Source of the DNA: a virus
Virus record (IMG/VR): IMGVR_UViG_3300025102_000355
Location: 1-21,121 of that record
Reading direction: 5' to 3' (one strand)
Length of the DNA stretch: 21,121 nucleotides
Under the pieces are notes generated by a model, which had not been told where the DNA came from, made no database searches, and saw only the letters and a program-made list of their open reading frames with translations. Positions 1 to 20,906 of the stretch are shown here, piece by piece (positions within the stretch are counted from its first letter, which is position 1; each line of letters begins with the position of its first letter). The position numbers and the translations under genes were made by a program.

Positions 1-93
1 AATAGCAAATAATTCAAGAGACTTCATGTCCATGCCATCGACGACCATCTTGGCATAGTTGATTCGGAATTGTTCAAGTTGCTCAGGAGTCAT
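1..93 (-). CDS. Partial small conserved cyanophage-type protein (N-terminus only)
   Basis: The first 31 codons of a gene that runs off the left edge. It begins MTPEQLEQFRINYAKMVVDG and continues with a mixed acidic/hydrophobic helix-like sequence. No catalytic motif is visible. The start is the ATG whose complement is at 91-93. No Shine-Dalgarno sequence precedes it, but a TATACT -10 hexamer lies 23 nt upstream at 116-121. From memory, proteins with this opening are common small unknowns in T4-like cyanophages; that was not checked. Function unknown. Confidence 0.7.
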   Translation of the reverse strand, partial: MTPEQLEQFRINYAKMVVDGMDMKSLELFAI

Positions 94-102
94 GGTGTTT
101 GT

Positions 103-127
103 TTGAACTGAAATTAGTATAGGGCAG
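103..127 (-). repeat. 25-bp direct repeat with promoter -10, copy 1
   Basis: 25 bp identical except for one base to 412-436. Read on the minus strand, both copies contain TATACTAATTTCAGTTCAA. Each copy sits just upstream of a gene start (93 and 403), with TATACT at the same distance (22-23 nt) from the ATG. This looks like a duplicated promoter/leader. Confidence 0.8.
116..121 (-). promoter_or_regulatory. Putative -10 element (TATACT) for the gene at 1-93
   Basis: TATACT on the minus strand, predicting a start about 16 nt before the ATG. No recognisable TTGACA lies 17 nt upstream. Instead the upstream side holds three GGGCAGA-type iterons (122-152), so recognition may need another factor. 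Motif reading only. Confidence 0.5.
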
Positions 128-152
128 AGTGGGGCAGATCAGGGGCAGAGTG
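122..152. repeat. Three 10-11 bp iterons abutting a promoter
   Basis: On the plus strand, GGGCAGAGTG (122-131), GGGCAGATCA (132-141) and GGGCAGAGTG (143-152). They lie directly upstream of the TATACT hexamer at 116-121, with a period near one helical turn. They lie outside the genes that end at 158 and start at 93. Could be an operator or activator site; function inferred from position only. Confidence 0.55.
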
Positions 153-157
153 GACAC

Positions 158-403
158 TTAACGTGCTGGCACAATCTTCCAGTATTTTCTGGCAGAATGA
201 GATCTGTGCCTTACCATGCTCAGTTCCTTATGCAACCTGTTGATTCTGATGAGCGTCAACTTACCTTCTTCAGTATTGGGTTTTGGCCACTCAAGATAGT
301 TAGTTCCTTCAATCTCATTCCTACATCTAGCCAAATAATGAAGAATGATGCTAATATCATCTTCAGTAAGAGGAGTTTCCTCAGGTGAGCGAAGAATGGT
401 CAT
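158..403 (-). CDS. Small hypothetical protein, 81 aa
   Basis: Starts MTILRSPEETPL and has a helical middle ending in a basic tail (RHRSHSARKYWKIVPAR). No family motif, signal peptide or membrane segment is visible. The ATG is preceded by no clear Shine-Dalgarno sequence, but a TATACT -10 box lies 22 nt upstream at 425-430, inside the second copy of the 25-bp repeat. It therefore probably has its own short-leader transcript. Function unknown. Confidence 0.7.
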   Translation of the reverse strand: MTILRSPEETPLTEDDISIILHYLARCRNEIEGTNYLEWPKPNTEEGKLTLIRINRLHKELSMVRHRSHSARKYWKIVPAR

Positions 404-8825: not shown

Positions 8826-9995
8826 TTAGCGACGGATAGTAGAAATGGCGGGTTGACCCTGTTCAAATACAGTGTCTACCACTGTCTGAACGGACCTGGC
8901 GGTGCCTATGCCCACTTTATCATAGACAGGCACACAAACCAAGCCAAAGGTCTTGTGACGGTTTCCTAAGCGGATCACACGTCCAATAGACTGACTGATA
9001 CCGATGTAGTCCATGTTACGCATAAACAGAACTGCTTCCAGTCCCTTGACGTTGATACCTTCAGAAAGGATACTATGGTGCATGACAACAAAACGAGTGT
9101 CATCAGTGCCCCACTGGTTCAGAGTTTTGAAGAACTCTTCACGGGACACTTTCTTACCGTTGATGATAGCACCAGTCTTGCTAGTGATATACATCCAGTT
9201 GTATCCACGTTGTTGCAACTCATAGCAGAAGTCGGACTGTGAAACAAGACGCACAATCTGTTTGGTAGAACGTGCAGCAATCAGAATCTTATTGAGCGAG
9301 TTTGCATCAATAGTATCCAAAAGGTTTCTCTCATCAGACTGCTTGAAATCACCCTGAGGTAATTCCTGAACCACAACCTTTGGAGGAAGAATATAACCTT
9401 CCTCAACCAGTTTAGGTGCAGGAACACTACAAATTACCTGACCATAAACCTCAGCATCATTCATTCCTGGTTTGAAGATGGTAAGAGAATGCTTAGGAGT
9501 AGCAGTAAAAAAGTAGCAACGATCAGCATCGTGAGAGAAATGTTCTGTAGCAGGGAAGAAGTTGCGTTGCACACTGTTGTGTGCCTCATCAAAGTAAATG
9601 GTGTTCACCTCAATATCTGCTTCTTTGATACGATGCAAAGAATGATATGTGGTAAAGATGATGCAATTTTCACCTGCTGTGCGAGCAACATTAGCAAACA
9701 AGTGAATTTTCTCAGGATTGGTAGTGTGAAAATACTCAACATCGCCACTATGAACGTGCATAATGTGAGTGTAAGTATCTGACAACACTTCAAGGAACTC
9801 TTTACAGAGTTGTTCTGCCAGCAGAATACGAGGAGCAACTACAACAATAGTTCTGCTATGAAGAAGATCAATACGGGCATCTTCAATCATGCACATAGTC
9901 TTGCCACCACCAGTAGGGATGATGACCTGACCTTTGTCATGCTGTCGCATGGCATCTAATGCTTTGCTTTGGTGAGGACGAAGGGTGACAGTCAT
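8826..9995 (-). CDS. SF2 DEAH-box DNA helicase, 389 aa
   Basis: ATP-dependent nucleic-acid motor. Motif I IPTGGGKT (26-33, Walker A), Ia VVVAPRILLAEQ (51-62), motif II DEAH (136-139), motif III FTATP (163-167), motif V ILSEGINVKGLE (309-320) and motif VI QSIGRVIRLG (335-344). The type III restriction/UvsW-like SF2 arrangement fits branched-DNA remodelling or replication-recombination. At 389 residues it is shorter than the T4 UvsW I recall, so it may be a separate cyanophage helicase; the symbol is left blank. It has its own promoter (TGC-TATAAT at 10017-10025) with a leader of about 15 nt, suggesting early or middle expression. Base composition is more GC-rich than the upstream hydroxylase cluster. 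Confidence 0.9.
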   Translation of the reverse strand: MTVTLRPHQSKALDAMRQHDKGQVIIPTGGGKTMCMIEDARIDLLHSRTIVVVAPRILLAEQLCKEFLEVLSDTYTHIMHVHSGDVEYFHTTNPEKIHLFANVARTAGENCIIFTTYHSLHRIKEADIEVNTIYFDEAHNSVQRNFFPATEHFSHDADRCYFFTATPKHSLTIFKPGMNDAEVYGQVICSVPAPKLVEEGYILPPKVVVQELPQGDFKQSDERNLLDTIDANSLNKILIAARSTKQIVRLVSQSDFCYELQQRGYNWMYITSKTGAIINGKKVSREEFFKTLNQWGTDDTRFVVMHHSILSEGINVKGLEAVLFMRNMDYIGISQSIGRVIRLGNRHKTFGLVCVPVYDKVGIGTARSVQTVVDTVFEQGQPAISTIRR

Positions 9996-10091: not shown

Positions 10092-10120
10092 AGTCTAAAG
10101 TCTTTTGGGACTTTTGTCAA
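10092..10120 (-). promoter_or_regulatory. Possible promoter with an inverted repeat filling the spacer
   Basis: TTGACA (10115-10120), exactly 17 nt, then TAGACT (10092-10097). The spacer is covered by AAAGTC / GACTTT (10097-10102 and 10109-10114) with a 6-nt loop. The upstream gene's TGA lies inside TTGACA. Could also be a weak terminator, but there is no T-tract. Confidence 0.4.
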
Positions 10121-10737
10121 GTGTGCTTGCTTCCAAAGAAAGATGTGATAGAATATCTGCCATGCCCTTCAAAGTAATCAGAGTCTTCTATTGACACTTT
10201 ATTCACACCATGTTCTACCCAACCAGGCATCATGATTAAAGAATTGTTATGACAACCAAAACTGTAATTGTATTTTGGAAAGATCAATTCACCACCATTA
10301 AACACTTTCGGTTCTTTGTGAAAGTATGAAAATGCTAAAAATTGCATGGATTTATCAATGTGTGGTTCATAGTATTCACCATTATGATAATATCTGACTT
10401 TGGTGCAGTCCCAATTAGAATATCTAGCAATAGAGCAGCAATCATGTAGTTCGGAAAATACATCCAAAACAGAACTATCAAACACTTTTCTGGTGACAGT
10501 TAGAATGTTTGATAATTTTCTATGTTCATCTGAATAGATGTCATCTAGTAGCAACGCATGCGAATTAGTTTTATCAACTACTCCACCATAATCCTTCGCT
10601 TCTAGAAATTTTCCAGGTCTAGTATAAAAATCTAGTTCTTGCCAAATTAAATCTAGTTCATCTTTGTTATAAAAATTATGAAAGATTACATGCGGGAATG
10701 GTTCATAAAATACCTCAGCTTCAATATTTTCCATCAT
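10117..10737 (-). CDS. 2-oxoglutarate/Fe(II) oxygenase (prolyl-hydroxylase-like), 206 aa
   Basis: Double-stranded beta-helix oxygenase. Iron ligands HID (H126, D128 in YYEPHIDKSM) and distal H176 (PGWVEHGV); R194 (GRYSITSFF) is the expected 2-oxoglutarate contact. The family hydroxylates protein side chains or small molecules using O2, Fe(II) and 2-oxoglutarate. Length is normal for a single-domain enzyme. The start overlaps the upstream gene by ATGA (10734-10737); a second ATG follows at once. Last gene of an AT-rich five-gene cluster behind a late promoter (12603-12610). Substrate unknown; neighbouring fibre proteins are a plausible target. Confidence 0.82.
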   Translation of the reverse strand: MMENIEAEVFYEPFPHVIFHNFYNKDELDLIWQELDFYTRPGKFLEAKDYGGVVDKTNSHALLLDDIYSDEHRKLSNILTVTRKVFDSSVLDVFSELHDCCSIARYSNWDCTKVRYYHNGEYYEPHIDKSMQFLAFSYFHKEPKVFNGGELIFPKYNYSFGCHNNSLIMMPGWVEHGVNKVSIEDSDYFEGHGRYSITSFFGSKHT

Positions 10738-11207
10738 TCAACCTCTATATCAAATTTTACGTCAACATATAAAAATTCCATGGTTGTGTTAGAATTATTA
10801 GCACCCTGATGTTCTTGTTCCACATTAAAAATTTCTGATCTACCTTCCTTCCAGTAAACTTTCTCACCAGTAGCAGTCCATTCAATATAACCATCTTCAA
10901 CCTTTGTGGGTATCTGAATCCTTTTATATGGTTGACGATGTGGATTGTAGTCTCGATGTGGAGGTGCAATCATATTTGGCGGATAACTTAAAAAGTAAAC
11001 ACCTAGAATGTCTTCATTCTCAATAATATGAATCACTGGTTCAGATAATTCTCTATTTGGATATTGAATTAAATTAACTCCGCCCTTAATGTAACAAATT
11101 TTAAGACCATATCCCATGTATTTTGATGTAATACGCTCATTTCTTAATGGAAAATCAGTATTTTTTGCCCATTTATATAATGAATCTAAATCTTGTTTAG
11201 TGATCAT
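10734..11207 (-). CDS. Aspartyl/asparaginyl beta-hydroxylase-like protein, 157 aa
   Basis: APPHRDYNPH gives H84 and D86 (HxD), followed by KRIQIPTKVEDGYIEW, then EGRSEIFNVEQEHQGANNSN with distal H133 and ending FLYVDV. This order and spacing match the Asp/Asn beta-hydroxylase (PF05118-type) fold, which uses Fe(II) and 2-oxoglutarate. The usual arginine late in the motif is replaced by TTMEF, so cofactor binding may differ. Coupled by ATGA to genes on both sides. Probable protein hydroxylase; substrate unknown. Confidence 0.72.
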   Translation of the reverse strand: MITKQDLDSLYKWAKNTDFPLRNERITSKYMGYGLKICYIKGGVNLIQYPNRELSEPVIHIIENEDILGVYFLSYPPNMIAPPHRDYNPHRQPYKRIQIPTKVEDGYIEWTATGEKVYWKEGRSEIFNVEQEHQGANNSNTTMEFLYVDVKFDIEVE

Positions 11208-11674
11208 ATCTTTGTGAATACTCCCAATAAAGCATCAGCGACTTCAACCTCATAATCTTTATCTTCTAATTTTGCATAATCAAATTTTTTAACTATTTTT
11301 CCATTTATAGTTGCACTACCATCAAAACATATAATCCAACTGTTGCTATCTCCTTTGAAAGATGACGTTATTTTTTTAGCATCCCAATCCTGTGATGGTG
11401 TTAAGGGATTGAATCCATAAACTTCATAAAAATCTTCACCATCTTTATCAGATACAAGAACTCTATCTTTACCCAACACTGATTTACAATTAACAATATC
11501 TCCCCTACTACCATCAATCGATGTTGAATCAAAAGTTGTAATCAGTCTTCCTTTTCCTTTAACTATAATTTGAAATAGAGTTATAGAATTTTCTTTTGAT
11601 TCTGCAAAAACTTCTCTTTTTTTATCTTTTGATCCACAAATGTAAAACTCCTCACATCTCTTAAAGTATTTCAT
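11204..11674 (-). CDS. Unknown beta-rich protein, possibly cupin-like, 156 aa
   Basis: Begins MKYFKRCEEFYICGSKDKKR. The sequence is alternating strands (ITLFQIIVKGKGRLITTF; SWIICFDGSATINGKIVKKF), and SWIICFDGSATING resembles a cupin barrel segment, but no HxH metal motif is seen. It lies between two hydroxylase-type genes with ATGA overlaps on both sides. No firm family; could be an accessory protein of the cluster or a structural protein. Confidence 0.6.
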   Translation of the reverse strand: MKYFKRCEEFYICGSKDKKREVFAESKENSITLFQIIVKGKGRLITTFDSTSIDGSRGDIVNCKSVLGKDRVLVSDKDGEDFYEVYGFNPLTPSQDWDAKKITSSFKGDSNSWIICFDGSATINGKIVKKFDYAKLEDKDYEVEVADALLGVFTKI

Positions 11675-12021
11675 AATTCAATCCTCTTCATTTTAATAGG
11701 ATATTTGGGTCTGGAAAAATACTTGCCCTCTATAACTTTACCTACCAGATCTTCCAAGTTGAATTCATCATCAGAAATAGATTTTGAAATATTAGATGGA
11801 TTTATTGTTCGTTTATTTATTTGTTGCTCAATAATATCCAATCCATGATTTCTGACTAGAGAGTCTGAGAAAAAATCTGAATCAGTCATATCTAAGTAAT
11901 CACAATTTATTGAATATGCTTTGTAATTGTCAATTGGAATGGTTGACTTTTCATCGCAAAATTTTACTTCAATCCTATTTTCATCAGGATAATATTCAAC
12001 TATTTTAAATATTACCTTCAT
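11671..12021 (-). CDS. Conserved-type hypothetical protein, 116 aa
   Basis: Begins MKVIFKIVEYYPDENRIEVK, then FCDEKSTIPIDNYKAYSINC, with DLVGKVIEGK near the C-terminus. I recall a related protein among cyanophage structural genes, but not its role. Overlaps its upstream neighbour by 17 nt and its downstream neighbour by ATGA. No catalytic motif; probably part of the late operon. Confidence 0.7.
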   Translation of the reverse strand: MKVIFKIVEYYPDENRIEVKFCDEKSTIPIDNYKAYSINCDYLDMTDSDFFSDSLVRNHGLDIIEQQINKRTINPSNISKSISDDEFNLEDLVGKVIEGKYFSRPKYPIKMKRIEL

Positions 12022-12583
12022 CTTGTATGACTCCCCATGATGTTGCTATGTATTTTGTTCCTCCTAAAGGAGGATTTCCTCTATGAGTATGTGTAAATGA
12101 AGCAGGAAACATAATAACATCTCCTGCTATTGATTCTTCTCTTCTCTGTTGATATAAAAATTCTGTCTCACCACCTTCAAAGTCATCATTTAAATATAGT
12201 TGAACGACAAATTGTCTTGGTGCTACAGATAAAGCACCATTTTCATAATGCCATGCATGAAATCCTCCACCCGGAGGTATTTTTTTCAGTTTCAGATCAT
12301 GTAAAAGAAATTTTCTGTTTCCCAAAATACTAAAAGTTTCCAGATATTCCTCTAAACAGGGTTTGAATCCTGGAAATATCATTGTGGATAATTTATTTGA
12401 TGCTACAAAGTTATAGTCGTGCGTGACATTTATCGTCTTATGATCTTCTTTATGCAGACTACCTCTATCATAAGTTAAAATGTGATTATTTTCAAAAAAT
12501 TCAATATAATTTATTATCTCCTTACATTCTTCTTTTGAAAAAGCACCACGATACCTTCGTATCAAATCAAACTCAGATGCCAT
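12005..12583 (-). CDS. 2-oxoglutarate/Fe(II) oxygenase-like protein with HxE variant, 192 aa
   Basis: The core reads KKIPPGGGFHAWHYENG, then RQFVVQLYLNDDFEGGETEF, GDVIMFPASFTHTHRGNPP and GTKYIATSWG. These are typical 2OG oxygenase/prolyl-hydroxylase landmarks: first ligand pair at H112-Y-E114 (HxE in place of HxD; H109 is an alternative), distal His at 165 or 167, and K177 for 2-oxoglutarate. The Glu replacement may be tolerated or may alter activity. It starts 20 nt after a late octamer CATAAATA (12603-12610) and is the first gene of the hydroxylase cluster. Confidence 0.8.
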   Translation of the reverse strand: MASEFDLIRRYRGAFSKEECKEIINYIEFFENNHILTYDRGSLHKEDHKTINVTHDYNFVASNKLSTMIFPGFKPCLEEYLETFSILGNRKFLLHDLKLKKIPPGGGFHAWHYENGALSVAPRQFVVQLYLNDDFEGGETEFLYQQRREESIAGDVIMFPASFTHTHRGNPPLGGTKYIATSWGVIQDEGNI

Positions 12584-12602: not shown

Positions 12603-12610
12603 TATTTATG
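12603..12610 (-). promoter_or_regulatory. T4-like late promoter octamer (CATAAATA)
   Basis: Seven of eight matches to TATAAATA, 20 nt before the ATG of the 12005-12583 gene. The TAA stop of the Gly-rich protein gene (12606-12608) lies within it. Confidence 0.75.
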
Positions 12611-13631
12611 CCACCCCTGTAGCACTCGTAGATCCCCTAATTGTTCCGTTATTTACTACTGATATTGTGACACCACTTTGTCTTCTTATAGCAGCACCAT
12701 CTCCTCCTCCTGATCCACCGCTACCTGTTTCCTCTCCTGATCCTCCTCCACCATTATTAGCTCCTTCACCATTACTTCCACCACTTCCTCCAGCACCGCC
12801 TCTTGCTTCACCATCATTATCACCACCAGAACCACCTGACCCCGCAGAATTCAATCCACCACTACTACCACTAGCACCACTCTTATCGGATGAACCACCA
12901 GATCCACCACTACCTGCTGGGAAACCGGCACCACCGCCACCGCCACCTCCTGAGGCATTTCTTCTTTTATCAGACTTACCTTTCCCTCCTTCATCGAACT
13001 GATATGCAGCACCGCCACCGCCACCGCCACCAAATCCGGCAGAAATTGTTCCACTGTTGTTAATTACAGTGGTTCCATCAGAAGATTCGTGGTCAATACC
13101 TAATCCACTATTTCCATCTTCTCCGCCTGAACCACTATTACTACCACTATTACCACCTTTACCACCATTACCACCAGCACCACCGATATAACCTTCAGAT
13201 CCAACATCAACCCTTAATAAACAATCAGAACCATATTCTCCAGTTCTTAGTGCAACTACATTTTTTGCTTTACCTTTTTCAGATTTAAATGATTTATTGA
13301 CATTAATAATTACTTTAATTCCAGTTGGAGGGCTTGGATGAGACCTAAAACCTCCAACAACACTTACCTGATTGCTATTATATTTTGTTTTAGCATTTCC
13401 TCTCGCTTCTGTAGAACCAGAATGGCAATCAACGACTACATTCAATCTTCTACCGTAAAAATCACTAAATTTTATCTCACCCGTCTGAGGGATATTACTA
13501 TCTAAAGGAATATTTGAAAGAGATCCATGATTTTCAGATACACGAAAAGCTCCTAAATTACTGTTACTAGGAGTTCCAAACTCACTAGTAATATTGGAAA
13601 AAGTAATTTGACCCGTAGATTGTAGTGTCAT
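12606..13631 (-). CDS. Glycine-rich tail-fibre/adhesin-like protein, 341 aa
   Basis: The N-terminal part (1-140, MTLQSTGQITFSNITSEFGT, then SGxIxFSDFYG at about 50-60) is a beta-rich attachment domain. Residues about 150-315 are glycine-rich (GGAGGNGGKGG; FGGGGGGG; GGSGGSGG), and the end returns to strands (VTISVVNNGTIRGS). Two VxNNxGTI motifs (about 188-198 and 324-332) flank the Gly region. Polyglycine-II bundles form receptor-binding tips in T4-type adhesins such as S16 gp38; the composition here fits that idea. Starts 6 nt after the preceding fibre gene, so co-transcribed. Could instead be a capsid decoration protein. Confidence 0.72.
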   Translation of the reverse strand: MTLQSTGQITFSNITSEFGTPSNSNLGAFRVSENHGSLSNIPLDSNIPQTGEIKFSDFYGRRLNVVVDCHSGSTEARGNAKTKYNSNQVSVVGGFRSHPSPPTGIKVIINVNKSFKSEKGKAKNVVALRTGEYGSDCLLRVDVGSEGYIGGAGGNGGKGGNSGSNSGSGGEDGNSGLGIDHESSDGTTVINNSGTISAGFGGGGGGGAAYQFDEGGKGKSDKRRNASGGGGGGGAGFPAGSGGSGGSSDKSGASGSSGGLNSAGSGGSGGDNDGEARGGAGGSGGSNGEGANNGGGGSGEETGSGGSGGGDGAAIRRQSGVTISVVNNGTIRGSTSATGVA

Positions 13632-13637
13632 ATGTTA

Positions 13638-15491
13638 TTAGAAGCAATCGTTCCAGGATGAACCATTCCAAACTTGAAGTTTGTTGGTGGTTGTGTTGTA
13701 AATCATAGCACCTGCCTCATCAGTATCAAGTGCATTACCAAGAGTATCCTTCAAAGCATTTCTTTGAGTTGTCGTCACTCTAGGTGGAATCATATATGCA
13801 ATAGTTGCCCTTGATGTGCCACCGTCGCCCACAACATCAACTACACTTGACATATCAACAGCACATTTTGGAGATGTAGTTGGACCAACAACTAAACCAT
13901 GTTGTGCCTGAACATCTCCTCTGACATCAAGTTCCATGTCGGGGAGTATCGTATCAGTTTTTACACCAACATTTCCATTTTCGTCAACTTTTAATATATT
14001 CGAAAGAGCTGAACCCAAACTTACTATGTCTGTAGTCGTAATGCCACTTTGAGTATTGATGTTATTAGTGACAACTAAATTAGTAAAAGTTGAAACTCCT
14101 GTTGCCGCATTAACATTACCAGTAAGATTTCCAGTAACGTTTCCAGTAAGATTTGAAGAGAAACTATCAACAGTTAAGTTACCTTCAATATTAACATTAC
14201 CATTACAATAGATATTACTAGTGAATGTGGAAATACCGGAAACACTTAATTTATGTGATGGATTTGTGATTCCTATCCCTAAGTTGCCACCATAGGTAAG
14301 TGACATTAACCTAGAAGTATTTTTTCCTCTGTGCCAGTGGAAATCACCTGTCCCTACACCAGCAGTTCCTGCCTCAAGATAGAAGTTGACATTACCCGTA
14401 TCATAGTTAATAACGTCAAAAGATTTGGATGAACTATATGGGAAAGATCCTAGTGGGTTTCCGAATCTAATCGCTCCAGATGTGGTCTCTGTAGGAGCGC
14501 CGCGGCCAAGTGTGATGATGGAAGAATTATCTGCGCTTCTTAAGTGCACCGAAGATAATCCGGATGCAGTTCTAATCTCCAAGTTGGCATCAGGATTTGC
14601 AGCTCCGAATGCCGCTTTATTTTGTAACGCGGTGAACATTGTGCCACCAGCACCAACATTTAACTCATTCGTTGCGGTAATGATGCCCGCAGTTGGTAAG
14701 TTTAAGGAATTTGCTGTAATTTCTGTAGCACTGATTGTTCCAACCGTAATATTTGGGGTGCCTATCAGACCTCTAGCAGTTGTGGCAATACCAACAACAT
14801 CACCAGTTACATTACCTGTTAGGTTGCCAGAAAAACCGCCACTGAAAGTAGTTGCTGTGATGACACCAAGAGTTGCAGTGATGTTACTACCAACTTTAAG
14901 ATCAGTGAATGTAGAAACACCTGTAGAGTTTATATTTCCTGTGACACTACCGGTAAACTTATCACCTACAAATTGTGTAGCAGTGATAATACCAGTCGCT
15001 TTAATGTGACCAAGAGAACTAATACCAACACCACCAGGAACTGTACCAGTAAGTAATGGATTACCACCAACCTGGAGATTCATCCTAGGATCATTAGTGG
15101 ATACTCCAACAAATCCCGTATTGTAGATACTTGTAAATCCTAAACCAACATCAATATCCACCCACTGAGATGTCGGAATATTTGATAAGTTAGAACCGTC
15201 ACCAAAATAAGTGACAACACCAGACACGGCAGTGGCAATACCCGCAGCATTTACATTCAGGTTTCCTATAGAACCTGAAGTAATTGTGCTAACGCCAGTC
15301 ACTTCCAAGTTCTTGATGATACCACTTGATGCAGTAACAAGACCAACTACTCTTGCGGTCCCTCTAACATCCAAAGACTCAGTTGGTACGGTCGTGCCTA
15401 TACCAACCAAGCCATTAGCGTTTACAACTAAGTTATCATCGTCAACTTGAACACCATTACGAAAATTAAACGATTTTCTATAATTCGCCAT
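13638..15491 (-). CDS. Tail-fibre-like repeat protein, 617 aa
   Basis: Begins MANYRKSFNFRNGVQVDDDN. Repeated short beta motifs run throughout: GLVGIGTTVPTESLDVRG, GNLTGNVNAATGVSTFTNL, YFGDGSNLSNIP and GIGTT-type turns, as in trimeric phage fibres with long beta-structured shafts. The C-terminal TNKLQVWNGSSWNDCF is a typical fibre/structural end. It shares GDGSxL motifs with the 1798-residue fibre, suggesting modular duplication. A late octamer CATAAATA (15511-15518) lies 20 nt before the ATG. No enzyme motif. Confidence 0.78.
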   Translation of the reverse strand: MANYRKSFNFRNGVQVDDDNLVVNANGLVGIGTTVPTESLDVRGTARVVGLVTASSGIIKNLEVTGVSTITSGSIGNLNVNAAGIATAVSGVVTYFGDGSNLSNIPTSQWVDIDVGLGFTSIYNTGFVGVSTNDPRMNLQVGGNPLLTGTVPGGVGISSLGHIKATGIITATQFVGDKFTGSVTGNINSTGVSTFTDLKVGSNITATLGVITATTFSGGFSGNLTGNVTGDVVGIATTARGLIGTPNITVGTISATEITANSLNLPTAGIITATNELNVGAGGTMFTALQNKAAFGAANPDANLEIRTASGLSSVHLRSADNSSIITLGRGAPTETTSGAIRFGNPLGSFPYSSSKSFDVINYDTGNVNFYLEAGTAGVGTGDFHWHRGKNTSRLMSLTYGGNLGIGITNPSHKLSVSGISTFTSNIYCNGNVNIEGNLTVDSFSSNLTGNVTGNLTGNVNAATGVSTFTNLVVTNNINTQSGITTTDIVSLGSALSNILKVDENGNVGVKTDTILPDMELDVRGDVQAQHGLVVGPTTSPKCAVDMSSVVDVVGDGGTSRATIAYMIPPRVTTTQRNALKDTLGNALDTDEAGAMIYNTTTNKLQVWNGSSWNDCF

Positions 15492-15509: not shown

Positions 15510-18500
15510 TTATTTATGGTGGTCATCAACTTTCGCATTAAGTTGTTTAATTGCCTCAATAAGTAGAGGGACAAGTTTTTCATAACGAACTGCCATATAT
15601 CCATCATCTCTAGTTGTATAAAGACCTGGTAAATCAAGACCTGCAACTTCCTGAGCGATAACACCGATGTCAAGTCCTTCCTTATCAGACTTGTCATTCC
15701 ATTCAAATGTATTGCCACTAAGACTCAAGACCTTAGCGATGGCATCTTCAATAGGTTCAACATTATCTTTCAATCTTTGGTCAGAAGTGGAGAACGCGAT
15801 AAGATCACCTGTGAATGTACCAGCACCAGAAACCGAAAGGGCACCAGCAAATGTATGGGTGCCAGTTCCATTAACATCAAGATTATCATTAACAACAAGT
15901 GTTCCACTATTAGAATCAAGAGTTAAGTTTCCGCTGGTGGTAGTAACAGTGCTTCCGTCAATTCTTACATTATCAATATCTGCTCTGCCATTTACATCCA
16001 GTATTCCAGTTACAGTTGCTCCAGTTGTTGTTCCTTCAACTCTTACATCACCATCTGAATCATACAGTATTGTTGTAGTAATACCGGTCAGTGTAGATCC
16101 ATCACCATAGAAGTTTGTGGCAGTAACACTCGTTCCTGCGCCAGTAGCAGTGATGTTACCACCAACATGCAGATTCTTATCAATACCAACACCACCATCT
16201 ACAGTCAGAGCACCAGTTCCAACACTACTAGATTCTGTAGTATCTGTGATATTAAACACTCCTGTAACTTTAACAGAGGCATCAACATCAATATTTTCAT
16301 TAAACTTCGTTTCACCATTAAAGGTAACAGGACCATCAAACTGAGAAAGAACAGTGCCAGAATTGCCACCCTCAACAATTAGTCTCTCCTTAACTATAAC
16401 CTCATCAAACACTACACTGTTTACACTAGCATCTTCACCAGTTACAGTTGGGATAGGAATATCAAAGGTCTTCTCTTTACCAGTGGCAGAGTTAATCTTC
16501 TTGTTACCGATATAGAAGTCACCATCATTATTCATACCAGTGTAAACAACAATACCACAATTCTTCTCTTGTGCCTGTGCTAGAGTTTCCTCTTCTTCGT
16601 TCAGAGATCTTACTTGAACCTGAGGAAGTGCGGTAGAGTAGTTACCTGGACCATAACCAAGATACTCAAATGTATGACCAGATGCTCTCAAATACGTTGG
16701 TCTGTGGAACTCAATTGCCTTGAGATCAATCTTCTTAATGAGTGCTCCACCAGAATGATTCTCCTTAACTGTTCCCATAGCACCACGGATAACAGTCATC
16801 TCATTATTAGCAGAGCCTGAAAGAACATTACTGGTGACTCTCATAATCTCATTATCAACTTGGATATAAGATCCAAGTTCAAATCTAGCAGCAGTGGCAA
16901 CACCGACATTTGTAGTCTTGACTTTAATCGTCGTTTCATTAGTAATGCTAGACTTTAGAATAGCAGTCTCATTACCGAAGAACGACAAACCTCTAGATCC
17001 TAAGTTCTCACCATTCTTATCAGATGTCAGATCATTAGCGGATAAACCATGCTTCAGCAGGAACTTAGGTCCATGGATTGTAACACCAACACCAACGTTT
17101 GCTGTGACTGTGGTTGTGGTAACACCAGTAACATCATAGTGTCCAAGATCAGCATCACTGTTGTTTTTAACGGTCAACCTGTTACCAACCACGAAACCGT
17201 GTGGTTCAGTTGTTGTAAATGTGGTAATACCAGAAGTAATTGTAGTGGTAGCAGTAGAAACTGTGATCTCAGGAGCGATATTGATAAGATATTGTCCCTG
17301 GATTGGTCTCGCATCAGTGTTACTGATAGCAATCGCAACTTGATTCTTACCAGGAACACCAGTAATTCTAAAGTGTCCACTGGTGTGGGTGCCAATACCA
17401 GTCAGTTGAATTGTATTGCCATTAACAGTAGAAATACCGGAAGTAGAAATAGTGACACCTGCACCAGTTCCACCACCAACTCTAGAAGTATCAAAGTCTA
17501 ACTCTTCGTTGTTTGTATATCCAGAACCACCAGAGGTGATGTCAACATTAGATACTTTACCACCAGCGACAACAACTCTTGCTGTGGCACCATCCCATGT
17601 TGTTGTGCCGTTGTTGAACAGTTTAACATTATGGTAAGTGCCATTAACGTAACCAGAACCACCAGTCAGAGCACTGTAAGTTACAATACCGTTAAAGTTG
17701 TGGTTTTCATGGAAGGTAATCGTGGCAACACCAACTGTATTTGATGTGAATGATGTGGTGACACCAGAAATAGTAAGACCAATACCAAGTGTAGGAAGAA
17801 GATTGTCAATACTTTCTCTAGTAATACTCTTCTTCAAGTCACTTGTAGTTACATCACCTACTGGTGATCTCATCGCAAAGGATGCAGCAGACTCTGGATT
17901 ATCATTCACATTATCCTTATCCTGCTGTGGATAAAGATCATCAACCTTTTGACTGTAATAGTGAGTGGTATATTCTGCTGGAATATCATTGTTTGCGTTC
18001 AGAACATAGAGATGATAGATACCATCACTTACATTTTCAACATATGGTGTGATAACTTCATTTCTATAAATGTAGAAGTTGCCCTTCCAGTCAGTTCTCT
18101 CAAATCTAGGTAGAGCAATTGTTCTAGTGCTTGTATTGTTGGTAAAACTACCACCATTATGAGTGATGTCATCAACATCAGTTGTGGAGTGAGTAAATGT
18201 CTTATCATCAGGAATAGACAAAACAGTGAATACACCATTATATCCTTTGTTCTCTGTACCAGCAGTATTTCCTGTACTGGTTACATTCTTAATTGTAATC
18301 TTCTCACCAACTTTAATGTTGTGTGGAATCTCAGAGATGACAGTTACTGTAGAACTTGAAGTAGAACAAGTGCTAATAAATCTTGGATTTCTATTAAAGT
18401 CTGGATCAGAAGTTGTGATGCCCGTAGCGGTAAAATCTGCATTAGATCTCAGTGATGTAGTGCTAGATTCCTGGATAACAAATCCTTCCTCTGGTTCCTT

Positions 18501-20906
18501 ACAATTAGAGAGTTCCTTTGGAACAACAACTCTTAACTTATACAGTTTTTCATCAAGACTTCTGGAATCCTCTTTTCTTTTGATAAAACTGGTTGTTGTT
18601 CTAGTGCCAAGGGTTCCTGTTCCAAGAGTATTAAAAGCATTATAAATTGCGTTACCGGCAGATGACTTGACAAACCAGTTTCCATTACCTGCATCGAATT
18701 GAATTGGAGAACCAATTTCGCCAGAACTCTTTTCAGAAACTCTACTGCGAACTCTCAAACTTTCTCCACCATACAGTGTGATTGCCTCATCATTCTCAGC
18801 GTTTGTAATAGATGCTGCAACTTTAATAGTAGTGGCACTTGCCTTAATAGCAAAATAAACCTTGTGTGCTTCAATATTTTCTGGAAGATCTCCAGTGTCA
18901 CTGTTAATTACAATTTTCTCACCAGTAATTATTTGATGCGACCCAATAGTAAAAGTGCTATTGGTTACTGAGGTTACTTTATATTCTTTGACAGAGCTGG
19001 TTTCCCCAAGGGCAGAAGTAGTGGCAGTAGTGCTTATTTCATTGTCAACCATCAGAACATCTGCAGTGTAGGTGGTTCCAGAACCTACAAAGGATAGTTT
19101 CTCGTTCAGTTTGGCACCAATACGATAACCTTGAATCTTATGTGGTGGTTTAATATTCTTGTTATTATATCCAAAGAGATATAGATGACTAGTAATACCG
19201 ACAGAAGTTGTAAGACCAACATCAAGAGTTACCCAATCAATATCTTCTTCTTTGGTTACGACTGCTTTAGGGGTGATAACCGATGTGATATATCCTTTAT
19301 TATCCTTATTAAATGCTGCTTTCTTAAATCCAACACCATTTAGAGAAATTTGTCCAAAGTTAGAGTTGGAGTTTGTGATGCTCATGTCAGCACCATTTCT
19401 ACCATCAAAGTGATAGGCAAAACCAATAGCGAAGACTGAAACAATCTGTAAGAAGGAATCGTTTGAACCTTTGATATGAGAACTTTCCCATCCAATTCTA
19501 TACTGCGCCTCACTGTCTAAGTGATAGACTTTAGTGGCATCAGTAGATGAAGAACCACTAGCGAGAGCAGCACCAGTTACCTTAGATACACTAATACCCT
19601 CATAAACTCTTGAAGATTCATTATACTTAACGAACGCTCTGTCATCCTTTTGAAGACCGACAGCGGTGAACTGGGCAACAACCATGGAACGGAATCCAGT
19701 TGCCTTTGCACCATCAGCATGCATACCGTTCATGCCAAAGACTGAACGTAGTGAGATATTAAAGATGTATGGAGAGGCACCCTGGACAGTATCAGTCTCA
19801 ATAGTAACAGTAGAACCTGAAGCACTAGGAGATGCTGTCAGATTGTTTCTAACGAATGGAAGCAAGAATGTAAATGTTCTAGCATCAGTGACATTCTGAA
19901 CTGTGGTAGCGATATTATAATCTTCTACACTGACACCTTTAATCTTAATTGGTGTCCCTGATGTCAGTTTGTGATCAGTGCTTGTCGTTACTGTGATAAT
20001 ACTACTTGGCGTAGATCCATCACCAGAAATAATAGTGGAAATATTGACAGGATCATCGGCAAATGCACCGACAATTTCAAATTCTGGACGCTTAGCAGCA
20101 AAACCAAGTGGATCTGCTGGCCACTTCTGGTCAATATTTCTTCCAGTTTCTGTATTATAAGCATTAGAAAGCTTACTATAATACATCGCTAAGTCAGAGA
20201 TAGTATAACCTGTTGGAATGGTTACACCATCAGCGTATTCAAATACAGTAAGTTTGTGGTGAGAGAATGTAGGAGTAGCGGTATTAGCAGATGAAAAGTC
20301 CTGACTGTCAGTATAAACAGTTCCACTTTGATCACCATCAAAGATGGAGAATTGCCAGAAGTAACAAGTACCAGTTACTCTGAACAGAGCAGTTCCAGAT
20401 AAGTTATCATCTGTTGGATTTGGTACATATTTTGGTCTCAGTTTAGTTTTTCTTAAGTCAAGACCAACAATAGAGGTTCCACGGGGAACAATAACACCAC
20501 CGTTGATGCTGTTGAACTTGTAGAGAATATTATCTTCTTGAGTTAAATCAAATATTGAGTCTGTAGTTAATGTAAGAGTAGTTTGAGCACTTGTTGTTGC
20601 ACCAGAGGGAGAAACAGCAGTTGCGGTTCCACTCACATCTTTAATTGCAAAACCAGGTCTGTTATCAATAAGATGTTCTCCTGGATACAGAAGAATGGTT
20701 GTTTTCTCAATAATATCATTATCACTTCCCCTCAAATAGGAGAATCTTGCTGCCTCTAGCAGTGCTCTTTGGACAGTTTTAAAAGGTTTAGTTAATGAGT
20801 TTCCCTGATTTTCAATCGCGTCAGTAGCATCAAGGTCACTAGGGTTTACATAAAGAATACGACCTTCTGTATTCTTAATGAAGTTTTCCAGCTTATTAAG
20901 AGGCAT
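15510..20906 (-). CDS. Giant tail fibre with C-terminal S74 chaperone domain, 1798 aa
   Basis: The N-terminus (MPLNKLENFIKNTEGRILYV; SLTKPFKTVQRALLEAARFS) resembles the opening of pectin-lyase-like beta-helix fibre proteins. The long middle has repeated Thr/Ser/Gly beta motifs. The C-terminus SDQRLKDNVEPIEDAIAKVL, then FEWNDKS, GVIAQEV and VRYEKLVPLLIEAIKQL is an S74 intramolecular chaperone; S1708-D1709 is the expected self-cleavage site. Such domains trimerise the fibre and are then released. It should be a virion tail-fibre or baseplate-associated protein. A GDGSTLTGI motif near residue 1600 is shared with the 617-aa protein. A late octamer GATAAATA (20939-20946) lies 33 nt upstream. Confidence 0.85.
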   Translation of the reverse strand: MPLNKLENFIKNTEGRILYVNPSDLDATDAIENQGNSLTKPFKTVQRALLEAARFSYLRGSDNDIIEKTTILLYPGEHLIDNRPGFAIKDVSGTATAVSPSGATTSAQTTLTLTTDSIFDLTQEDNILYKFNSINGGVIVPRGTSIVGLDLRKTKLRPKYVPNPTDDNLSGTALFRVTGTCYFWQFSIFDGDQSGTVYTDSQDFSSANTATPTFSHHKLTVFEYADGVTIPTGYTISDLAMYYSKLSNAYNTETGRNIDQKWPADPLGFAAKRPEFEIVGAFADDPVNISTIISGDGSTPSSIITVTTSTDHKLTSGTPIKIKGVSVEDYNIATTVQNVTDARTFTFLLPFVRNNLTASPSASGSTVTIETDTVQGASPYIFNISLRSVFGMNGMHADGAKATGFRSMVVAQFTAVGLQKDDRAFVKYNESSRVYEGISVSKVTGAALASGSSSTDATKVYHLDSEAQYRIGWESSHIKGSNDSFLQIVSVFAIGFAYHFDGRNGADMSITNSNSNFGQISLNGVGFKKAAFNKDNKGYITSVITPKAVVTKEEDIDWVTLDVGLTTSVGITSHLYLFGYNNKNIKPPHKIQGYRIGAKLNEKLSFVGSGTTYTADVLMVDNEISTTATTSALGETSSVKEYKVTSVTNSTFTIGSHQIITGEKIVINSDTGDLPENIEAHKVYFAIKASATTIKVAASITNAENDEAITLYGGESLRVRSRVSEKSSGEIGSPIQFDAGNGNWFVKSSAGNAIYNAFNTLGTGTLGTRTTTSFIKRKEDSRSLDEKLYKLRVVVPKELSNCKEPEEGFVIQESSTTSLRSNADFTATGITTSDPDFNRNPRFISTCSTSSSTVTVISEIPHNIKVGEKITIKNVTSTGNTAGTENKGYNGVFTVLSIPDDKTFTHSTTDVDDITHNGGSFTNNTSTRTIALPRFERTDWKGNFYIYRNEVITPYVENVSDGIYHLYVLNANNDIPAEYTTHYYSQKVDDLYPQQDKDNVNDNPESAASFAMRSPVGDVTTSDLKKSITRESIDNLLPTLGIGLTISGVTTSFTSNTVGVATITFHENHNFNGIVTYSALTGGSGYVNGTYHNVKLFNNGTTTWDGATARVVVAGGKVSNVDITSGGSGYTNNEELDFDTSRVGGGTGAGVTISTSGISTVNGNTIQLTGIGTHTSGHFRITGVPGKNQVAIAISNTDARPIQGQYLINIAPEITVSTATTTITSGITTFTTTEPHGFVVGNRLTVKNNSDADLGHYDVTGVTTTTVTANVGVGVTIHGPKFLLKHGLSANDLTSDKNGENLGSRGLSFFGNETAILKSSITNETTIKVKTTNVGVATAARFELGSYIQVDNEIMRVTSNVLSGSANNEMTVIRGAMGTVKENHSGGALIKKIDLKAIEFHRPTYLRASGHTFEYLGYGPGNYSTALPQVQVRSLNEEEETLAQAQEKNCGIVVYTGMNNDGDFYIGNKKINSATGKEKTFDIPIPTVTGEDASVNSVVFDEVIVKERLIVEGGNSGTVLSQFDGPVTFNGETKFNENIDVDASVKVTGVFNITDTTESSSVGTGALTVDGGVGIDKNLHVGGNITATGAGTSVTATNFYGDGSTLTGITTTILYDSDGDVRVEGTTTGATVTGILDVNGRADIDNVRIDGSTVTTTSGNLTLDSNSGTLVVNDNLDVNGTGTHTFAGALSVSGAGTFTGDLIAFSTSDQRLKDNVEPIEDAIAKVLSLSGNTFEWNDKSDKEGLDIGVIAQEVAGLDLPGLYTTRDDGYMAVRYEKLVPLLIEAIKQLNAKVDDHHK
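15511..15518 (-). promoter_or_regulatory. T4-like late promoter octamer (CATAAATA)
   Basis: 20 nt before the ATG of the 617-aa fibre gene. It overlaps the TAA stop (15510-15512) of the giant fibre gene. Confidence 0.75.

Follow-up and report, generated by a model that had tools for sequence, protein, structure and literature searches.

A glycine-rich gene lies downstream of two fiber genes

We analyzed a virus fragment of 21,121 bases (IMG/VR record IMGVR_UViG_3300025102_000355; the whole stretch is called the window here) and a glycine-rich gene within it that very probably encodes a tail-fiber tip adhesin. An ATG at 13631 and a stop at 12606-12608 delimit a single complete open reading frame (ORF) of 341 amino acids (aa) on the minus strand. 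The original prediction, made from the DNA letters alone, had placed one protein at 12606-13631 without giving a strand, which the complete ORF confirms. It had also placed the gene after two fiber genes, and in the reading direction the gene indeed follows those for a 1798-aa fiber and a 617-aa tail protein, both matching PHROG tail families (Table 1). On the plus strand, frame 1 is interrupted by many stops over the same span, and a proline-rich ORF of 111 aa at 12667-13002 is the complement of the adhesin glycine codons.

Residues of about 150 to 315 had been described as mostly glycine and serine; we counted 71 glycines and 27 serines, together 98 of 166 residues. The further claim that this region is bracketed by VxNNxGTI motifs held in part. 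VINNSGTI (residues 189-196) fits the pattern and, together with VVNNGTI (325-331), flanks the long glycine-rich stretch at 199-312. However, VVNNGTI lacks one of the two variable positions, and a shorter glycine-rich stretch (150-174) precedes the first motif and so falls outside the bracket. Within residues 147-312, glycines recur at a distance of three residues more often than in 5000 shuffles (0.252 versus 0.186; z 3.3, p 0.0008). Nine lags were tested, and the excess was found at lag 3 only, with lags 1, 2, 4, 6, and 9 at expectation and lags 5, 7, and 8 under it.

As a lone query, the window protein retrieved 5 viral contig loci. A five-protein alignment retrieved 156 viral relatives, of which the best 80 were kept. 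From the 83 ORFs listed, we dropped L006, which is the window again, and L051, L062, L063, and L072, which are cut by a contig end; 78 were left, 62 of them distinct. These 62 complete proteins include that of the window; 61 measure 332-411 aa, and one, L070, measures 548 aa. Alignment A2 leaves out L070 by choice and holds the window protein and 60 relatives, the 61 members referred to below.

The predicted fold matches gp38 adhesins

The AlphaFold2 model built from A2 reached a mean predicted local distance difference test score (pLDDT) of 91.7 and a predicted template modeling score of 0.88. Structure prediction had been proposed at the outset as a check on the glycine-rich region, which came out ordered: between residues 151 and 320, blocks of 10 residues scored 83-98 (83 at 221-230), except for 61 at 211-220.

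A Foldseek search of the PDB returned seven matches. The three at E ≤ 0.001 are all gp38 chains (9v85_A, 5.3e-6; 9v85_C, 8.4e-6; 6f45_D, 1.5e-4), and the four others each have E 3.9 or worse. VIA-align superposed the model on gp38 of Salmonella phage S16 (6f45_D) with Z 18.4 and a root mean square deviation (rmsd) of 5.5 over 246 of 248 residues (model range 2..336), and on the gp38 head of E. coli phage PP01 (9v85_A) with Z 16.6 and an rmsd of 3.2 over 211 residues (model range 62..337). The next row after gp38, a Bxb1 tail tip chain, had Z 3.9. Because the rmsd is larger over the whole S16 chain, the placement of the anchor is less certain than that of the head. The AlphaFold2 weights that we used were trained on structures released earlier than 6F45, so the match to S16 gp38 would not be a memory of that structure. 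Among predicted viral structures (BFVD), 13 matches reached E ≤ 0.001, 3 of them named Gp38; the list consists of tail, Gp38, and many uncharacterized proteins and includes proteins of Prochlorococcus phages MED4-213 and P-SSM2.

Judging by the match to 6f45_D and 9v85_A, the protein would be a beta-helix whose two extensions build up a polyglycine II sandwich. The original prediction had seen a resemblance to polyglycine-helix adhesin tips; since the model matches the tail adhesins of PP01 and S16, this likeness reflects a shared predicted fold and not character alone. That the gene encodes a tail and not a capsid protein likewise agrees with the gp38 matches in the PDB, the PHROG tail families, and Pfam GP38, found in some members (see below). 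A capsid or other non-tail identity was rejected, as no such match appeared in the PHROG, Pfam, and profile scans and the non-gp38 Foldseek rows in the PDB had E ≥ 3.9.

The composition, with 98 of 166 residues glycine or serine, would also suit a disordered or elastic linker without a fold of its own. This is highly improbable, given the high pLDDT over most of the region, the near-constant glycine runs at 199-207 and 228-236 (family-wide entropy 0.50 and 0.17), and the gp38 register kept in the profile alignment.

Architecture of the predicted adhesin

S16 gp38, as a published report describes it, starts with a helical anchor that inserts three tryptophans into pockets of the gp37 trimer and continues as a beta-helix, two turns of which extend as ten glycine-rich polyglycine II motifs; the variable loops are proposed there as the receptor site (PMC6851490). 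The window protein has its parts in a corresponding order (Table 1). In the model, DSSP assigned strands between residues 63 and 150, at 175-197, and at 315-332. The segment between the two extensions aligned to NRLRINNQGWI of S16 gp38 in a comparison with three gp38 sequences. By our own count, the second extension, which spans 104-155 aa across the 61 members, probably contains 8 polyglycine helices. The putative distal loop D2 is the least certain part of the model.

Each of the three short helices of the anchor carries one aromatic residue, F18 (61 of 61 members), Y/F29 (61 of 61), and F58 (60 of 61), and these would be the counterparts of the S16 tryptophans. The S16-aligned range starts at model residue 2, so the shape of the anchor may be shared. 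A pseudo-threefold repeat in the anchor was borne out only partly: the first and third motifs were alike at p ≤ 0.05 in 29 of the 61 members, and a likeness of the second motif was seen to the first in 3 members and to the third in 7.

Table 1. Position and basis of the features discussed in the window.
Feature	Position	Strand	Basis
Predicted gp38-type tail-fiber tip adhesin, 341 aa	12606..13631	minus	ORF, predicted model, and gp38 fold match
N-terminal anchor, residues 1-61	13449..13631	minus	helices 11-18, 26-29, 55-58 (DSSP of model) and conservation
Beta-rich stem, beta-helix-like, residues 62-149	13185..13448	minus	DSSP strands; S16 profile alignment from residue 87
First, short glycine-rich extension, residues 150-174	13110..13184	minus	sequence; pLDDT blocks 88-98
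Beta segment between extensions, residues 175-198, with VINNSGTI	13038..13109	minus	DSSP
Second, long glycine-rich extension, residues 199-312	12696..13037	minus	sequence and model
Putative distal loop D2, residues 208-227	12951..13010	minus	differences from relatives; pLDDT 61 at 211-220
Putative distal loop D3, residues 247-255	12867..12893	minus	differences from relatives; insertion site
Closing beta segment, residues 313-341, with VVNNGTI	12609..12695	minus	DSSP
617-aa tail protein, directly upstream of adhesin	13638..15491	minus	PHROG phrog_3269
1798-aa tail fiber, C-terminal Peptidase_S74 chaperone	15510..20906	minus	PF13884, E 5e-12
2OG-Fe(II) oxygenase, directly downstream of adhesin	12005..12583	minus	PF13640

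Sequence comparisons hint at gp38 kinship

Comparison of the family with S16 gp38 and two of its relatives by hhalign aligned residues 87-248 (P 0.00057). It pairs TTVINNSGTISAGFGGGGGGG with the S16 stretch NRLRINNQGWICGGGGGGGG and also GGGGGAGFPAGSGG with GGGGGRPLGAGG. Against S16 gp38 alone, the alignment covers residues 87-159 only, with a score of 27.96; among 100 S16 sequences shuffled separately over residues 1-110 and 111-249, the top score was 24.0. Pfam GP38 (PF05268) was found in 5 of the 61 members at E ≤ 0.01 (best 2e-6). PHROG 2056, annotated "host specificity" and the family to which the PHROG scan assigns S16 gp38 itself, was found in 16 of the 61; the window protein matched it only at E 0.011, and P-SSM2 PSSM2_035 and the AG-345-L05 relative had no PHROG match. 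Searched against the PDB, the A2 profile gave 7 chains up to E 10, which are low-complexity matches to glycine runs; gp38 (9v85_A) ranked lowest, at E 5.3. The support from sequence is thus genuine but slim, and the assignment depends mainly on the fold.

Near relatives differ most at the putative finger tips

Over the 61 sequences, the anchor (IKFSDFYG and its surroundings) and the two glycine runs are highly conserved, and conservation is low, by block means, at 161-168, 208-220, 241-260, and 291-310. After seeing this block conservation, we split the extensions by hand into ten helices, five far loops, and three near turns, with the glycine pattern, strand ends, and a spacing of ~13 residues as guides. 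Compared with L007 (~74% identity), 35 of 50 positions differ in the putative loops (gaps counted), 18 of 78 in the glycine helices, and 1 of 11 in the near turns; the corresponding numbers are 35, 19, and 1 for L008 (~74% identity) and 5, 6, and 0 for the close relative L001. With gaps counted, loop D2 departs from L007 at 15 of its 20 positions, and identically from L008; loop D3 departs from each of the two at 7 of 9.

Among the 40 members under 80% identity, the loops carry 0.90-4.88 inserted residues per sequence, the near turns 0.00, and the helices 0-0.90; the largest single insertion site follows residue 250, in loop D3. Across the family, loops and near turns could not be told apart by substitution entropy. 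Constant glycine motifs with hypervariable loops are thus seen against L007 and more weakly over the 40 diverse members.

The ratio of nonsynonymous to synonymous substitution rates (dN/dS) against L001, the closest relative, is 0.70 for the adhesin. Six neighbors were computed in the same comparison: 0.12 for the 1798-aa gene, 0.16 for the 617-aa gene, 0 for the 2-oxoglutarate (2OG) oxygenase gene, 0.15 for a 156-aa gene, 0.06 for a 206-aa gene, and 0.06 for a helicase; the ratio was undefined for a 116-aa gene. Against L007 and L008, the adhesin has 0.36 and 0.34, the 617-aa gene 0.13 and 0.14, and the oxygenase 0.08 and 0.09. Against L037, the values are 0.43 for the adhesin, 0.23 for the 617-aa gene, and 0.06 for the 1798-aa gene.

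The window protein is very probably a gp38-type adhesin

Together, the modeled fold and these comparisons indicate that the window protein is very probably a gp38-type adhesin, which would sit as a monomer on the trimeric tail-fiber end of a cyanophage-type T4-like virus and touch the receptor with its loops. As part of the virion, its three-helix N-terminal anchor would dock onto the fiber end, and the beta-helix stem would bear the two glycine-rich extensions, folded back and forth as a rigid stack of polyglycine II helices. Loops at the distal helix ends would contact the host receptor. A constant glycine framework with changing loops could then alter binding while the fold is retained. The adhesin probably recognizes the host cell, and we infer a role in setting host range, which the original prediction had raised, from the gp38 fold and the differing finger tips of near relatives.

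Several observations weigh against this assignment. The TM-scores of the model with gp38 in the Foldseek search of the PDB are modest (0.29-0.48). The hhalign probabilities are low: 29.5 with the three gp38 sequences, and 9.4 and, in an earlier run (P 0.014), 3.2 with S16 gp38 alone, the comparison that the shuffle control covers. The window protein (P0001) matches no Pfam family and, in a sequence search, no PDB entry. GP38 was found in just the 5 members and, up to E 1, in none of ten proteins scanned singly, among them the annotated S-SRM01 adhesin and P-SSM2 PSSM2_035. The anchor lacks the tryptophans and the sequence of Gp38_N (PF21721), which S16 gp38 does match and which was found neither in the window protein nor in any of the 61 members at E 0.01. 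The loop boundaries are hand-drawn, and L007 and L008 are similar to each other and therefore do not constitute two independent tests. Among the 40 members, helices 5-9 also accept insertions (0.25-0.90 residues per sequence), and the entropy of near turns P2 and P3 (2.62 and 2.93) is as high as that of the loops (2.04-2.77). Last, the 156-aa gene has a dN/dS of 0.42 against both L007 and L008, higher than that of the adhesin. This gene (11204-11674) encodes a protein with 39-40% identity to its L007 and L008 counterparts and without a PHROG match.

The same fold could also serve as a rigid cap, in a structural decoration or collar-type tail protein, with another fiber binding the receptor. 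The presence of several fiber genes (1798 and 617 aa) fits this, as binding could then rest partly or mainly with a protein other than the adhesin, and so do the mixed upstream neighbors described in the next section, which leave more than one candidate for the partner fiber. A structural cap would, however, not be expected to vary most at the finger tips, as seen against L007, with the framework constant, and we consider it quite unlikely.

The adhesin may cap the S74-bearing fiber

The 1798-aa fiber is the likely gp37 equivalent; PF13884 (Peptidase_S74) is also present on S16 gp37 and on the AG-345-L05 fiber. In the window, the adhesin gene lies downstream of this S74-bearing fiber gene, with the 617-aa gene in between. 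We compared gene neighborhoods using one locus per distinct adhesin, with genes called on length alone and named after their best BLAST hit to the window genes. In the 62 loci (window included), the nearest upstream gene is of the 617 type in 43, the 1798 type in 9, and neither in 10; one of the two types is thus nearest in 52, and all nearest upstream genes are on the same strand. In AG-345-L05, the adhesin directly follows the S74 fiber and the 617-type gene comes next. By analogy with S16, we somewhat favor the S74-bearing 1798-aa fiber as the seat of the adhesin, with the 617-aa protein as the alternative, which gene order alone also allows.

A position directly downstream of the fiber genes is also that of T4 gp38, which assists fiber folding and assembly and, according to the S16 report, is very unlike S16 gp38 in sequence (PMC6851490). 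That the window protein is such an assembly chaperone is extremely improbable, as its predicted fold matches gp38 of the adhesin type and the 1798-aa fiber has its own chaperone (PF13884).

In six loci (L042, L043, L046, L047, L056, and L063), a protein of 90-100 aa ending in GLLFPRGVYGR lies directly upstream of the adhesin, replacing the 617-aa gene, and is preceded by an ~800-aa protein or a cut part of one. These loci possibly combine another fiber type with the same kind of adhesin.

The likely host is a cyanobacterium

In a phage collection, the whole adhesin retrieved only 2 records, both marine single-cell viruses. The anchor retrieved 9, namely both of these again (E 1e-12 and 0.02) together with seven phages of Agrobacterium, Rhizobium, and Xanthomonas (E 0.03-0.3). 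The 1798-aa fiber is closest to Synechococcus and Prochlorococcus myovirus fibers (top row S-SRM01, 53.9% identity), the helicase (8826-9995) shares 79% identity with its counterpart in Synechococcus phage Sf-CH5, and an adhesin relative is present in a single-cell virus classed as Kyanoviridae. These resemblances make a cyanobacterial host likely. To our knowledge, little is understood of how individual proteins govern host choice in T4-like cyanophages. The predicted tip of the gp38 type, whose loops are delimited here, occurs in 61 distinct complete relatives in addition to the window and points to residues worth testing.

Much longer relatives occur in marine virus AG-345-D19 (L091:9001-11097, 698 aa) and P-SSM2 (PSSM2_035, L087:8319-11762, 1147 aa); by eye, additional segments seem to be inserted around their glycine-rich part.

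Comparison with known adhesins

Adhesins of the gp38 type with variable loops are well studied (PMC12892980, PMC6851490). The window protein would be a gp38 head on another anchor, and gp38 itself is an already known kind. It shares with S16 gp38 the predicted fold, the glycine motifs with differing loops, and a gene position downstream of a Peptidase_S74 fiber. The short extension occupies the same place as in S16, and both extensions are longer, ~25 and 114 residues as compared to the 18 and 77 reported for S16 (PMC6851490). In contrast to S16, the window protein has another sequence module as its anchor, in which Phe/Tyr replace the Trp of S16; its gene is separated from the S74 fiber gene by a second tail gene, of 617 aa; and the virus belongs to another group. 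For the T2/PP01 system, the comparison covers the PP01 structure 9V85. These likenesses suggest that the S16/T2 tip design, in which a glycine-fingered monomer caps an S74-matured fiber, extends beyond enterobacterial phages and that another kind of anchor can hold the cap in place.

The idea is not new, as a cyanophage gp38 homolog is already annotated. This protein, S-SRM01 gp053 ("adhesin tip complex"; Kyanoviridae), was assigned to PF05268 by HHpred (3.9E-07) in earlier work (PMC8557907). It is likewise glycine-rich and follows 1798- and 617-type fiber genes, but it measures 362 aa, has a Cys-rich insert and no Pfam GP38 match, and is separated from the fiber genes by a tryptophan halogenase gene. 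Glycine-rich adhesins are also described for haloarchaeal hafunaviruses, where host-range mutations are reported in the adhesin gene and the next gene (PMC8651126); these are viruses of archaea, likened here by description. The tail fiber gp24 of myocyanophage Pam3 is reported to contain a stack of 12 glycine-rich motifs with variable tips, a likeness to the window protein, but to form a trimer that has a TNF-like domain and relies on gp25 as its chaperone (PMC9608196). It was not among the seven Foldseek matches in the PDB, which does not exclude a likeness.

An oxygenase gene often adjoins the adhesin gene

In 47 of 60 loci, the first gene downstream of the adhesin encodes a 2OG-Fe(II) oxygenase (same strand in 43, opposite strand in 4), and in 52 of 60 such a gene lies at most two genes away (same strand in 48). 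Among the 46 distinct complete oxygenase copies with the window's enzyme as their best match, each of H112, E114, H167, and K177 is conserved in 45 or 46; in our reading, these are presumed metal and cosubstrate residues. Matches of the enzyme in the PDB were weak (PiuC, E 0.077; collagen lysine hydroxylase LH3, E 0.24). A published table of variable islands in marine phages counts both gp38 and Fe(II)-dependent oxygenases among the island genes and places the oxygenases under "host recognition" (PMC3909814). It is conceivable, though unlikely, that the adjoining oxygenase is dedicated to hydroxylating the adhesin or fiber as they assemble, which would change or diversify receptor binding in ways that the loop sequences do not encode; if so, the order of fiber, adhesin, and oxygenase would be one functional cassette in cyanophage-type viruses. 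In the open literature, we found no paper that combines oxygenase, tail fiber, cyanophage, and prolyl hydroxylase.

Two further oxygenase-like genes lie close by, at 10117-10737 (2OG-FeII_Oxy_3, E 2e-6) and 10734-11207 (aspartyl/asparaginyl beta-hydroxylase PF05118, E 3e-5). The S-SRM01 tryptophan halogenase (gp052, L088:8181-9638) may be another modifying enzyme.
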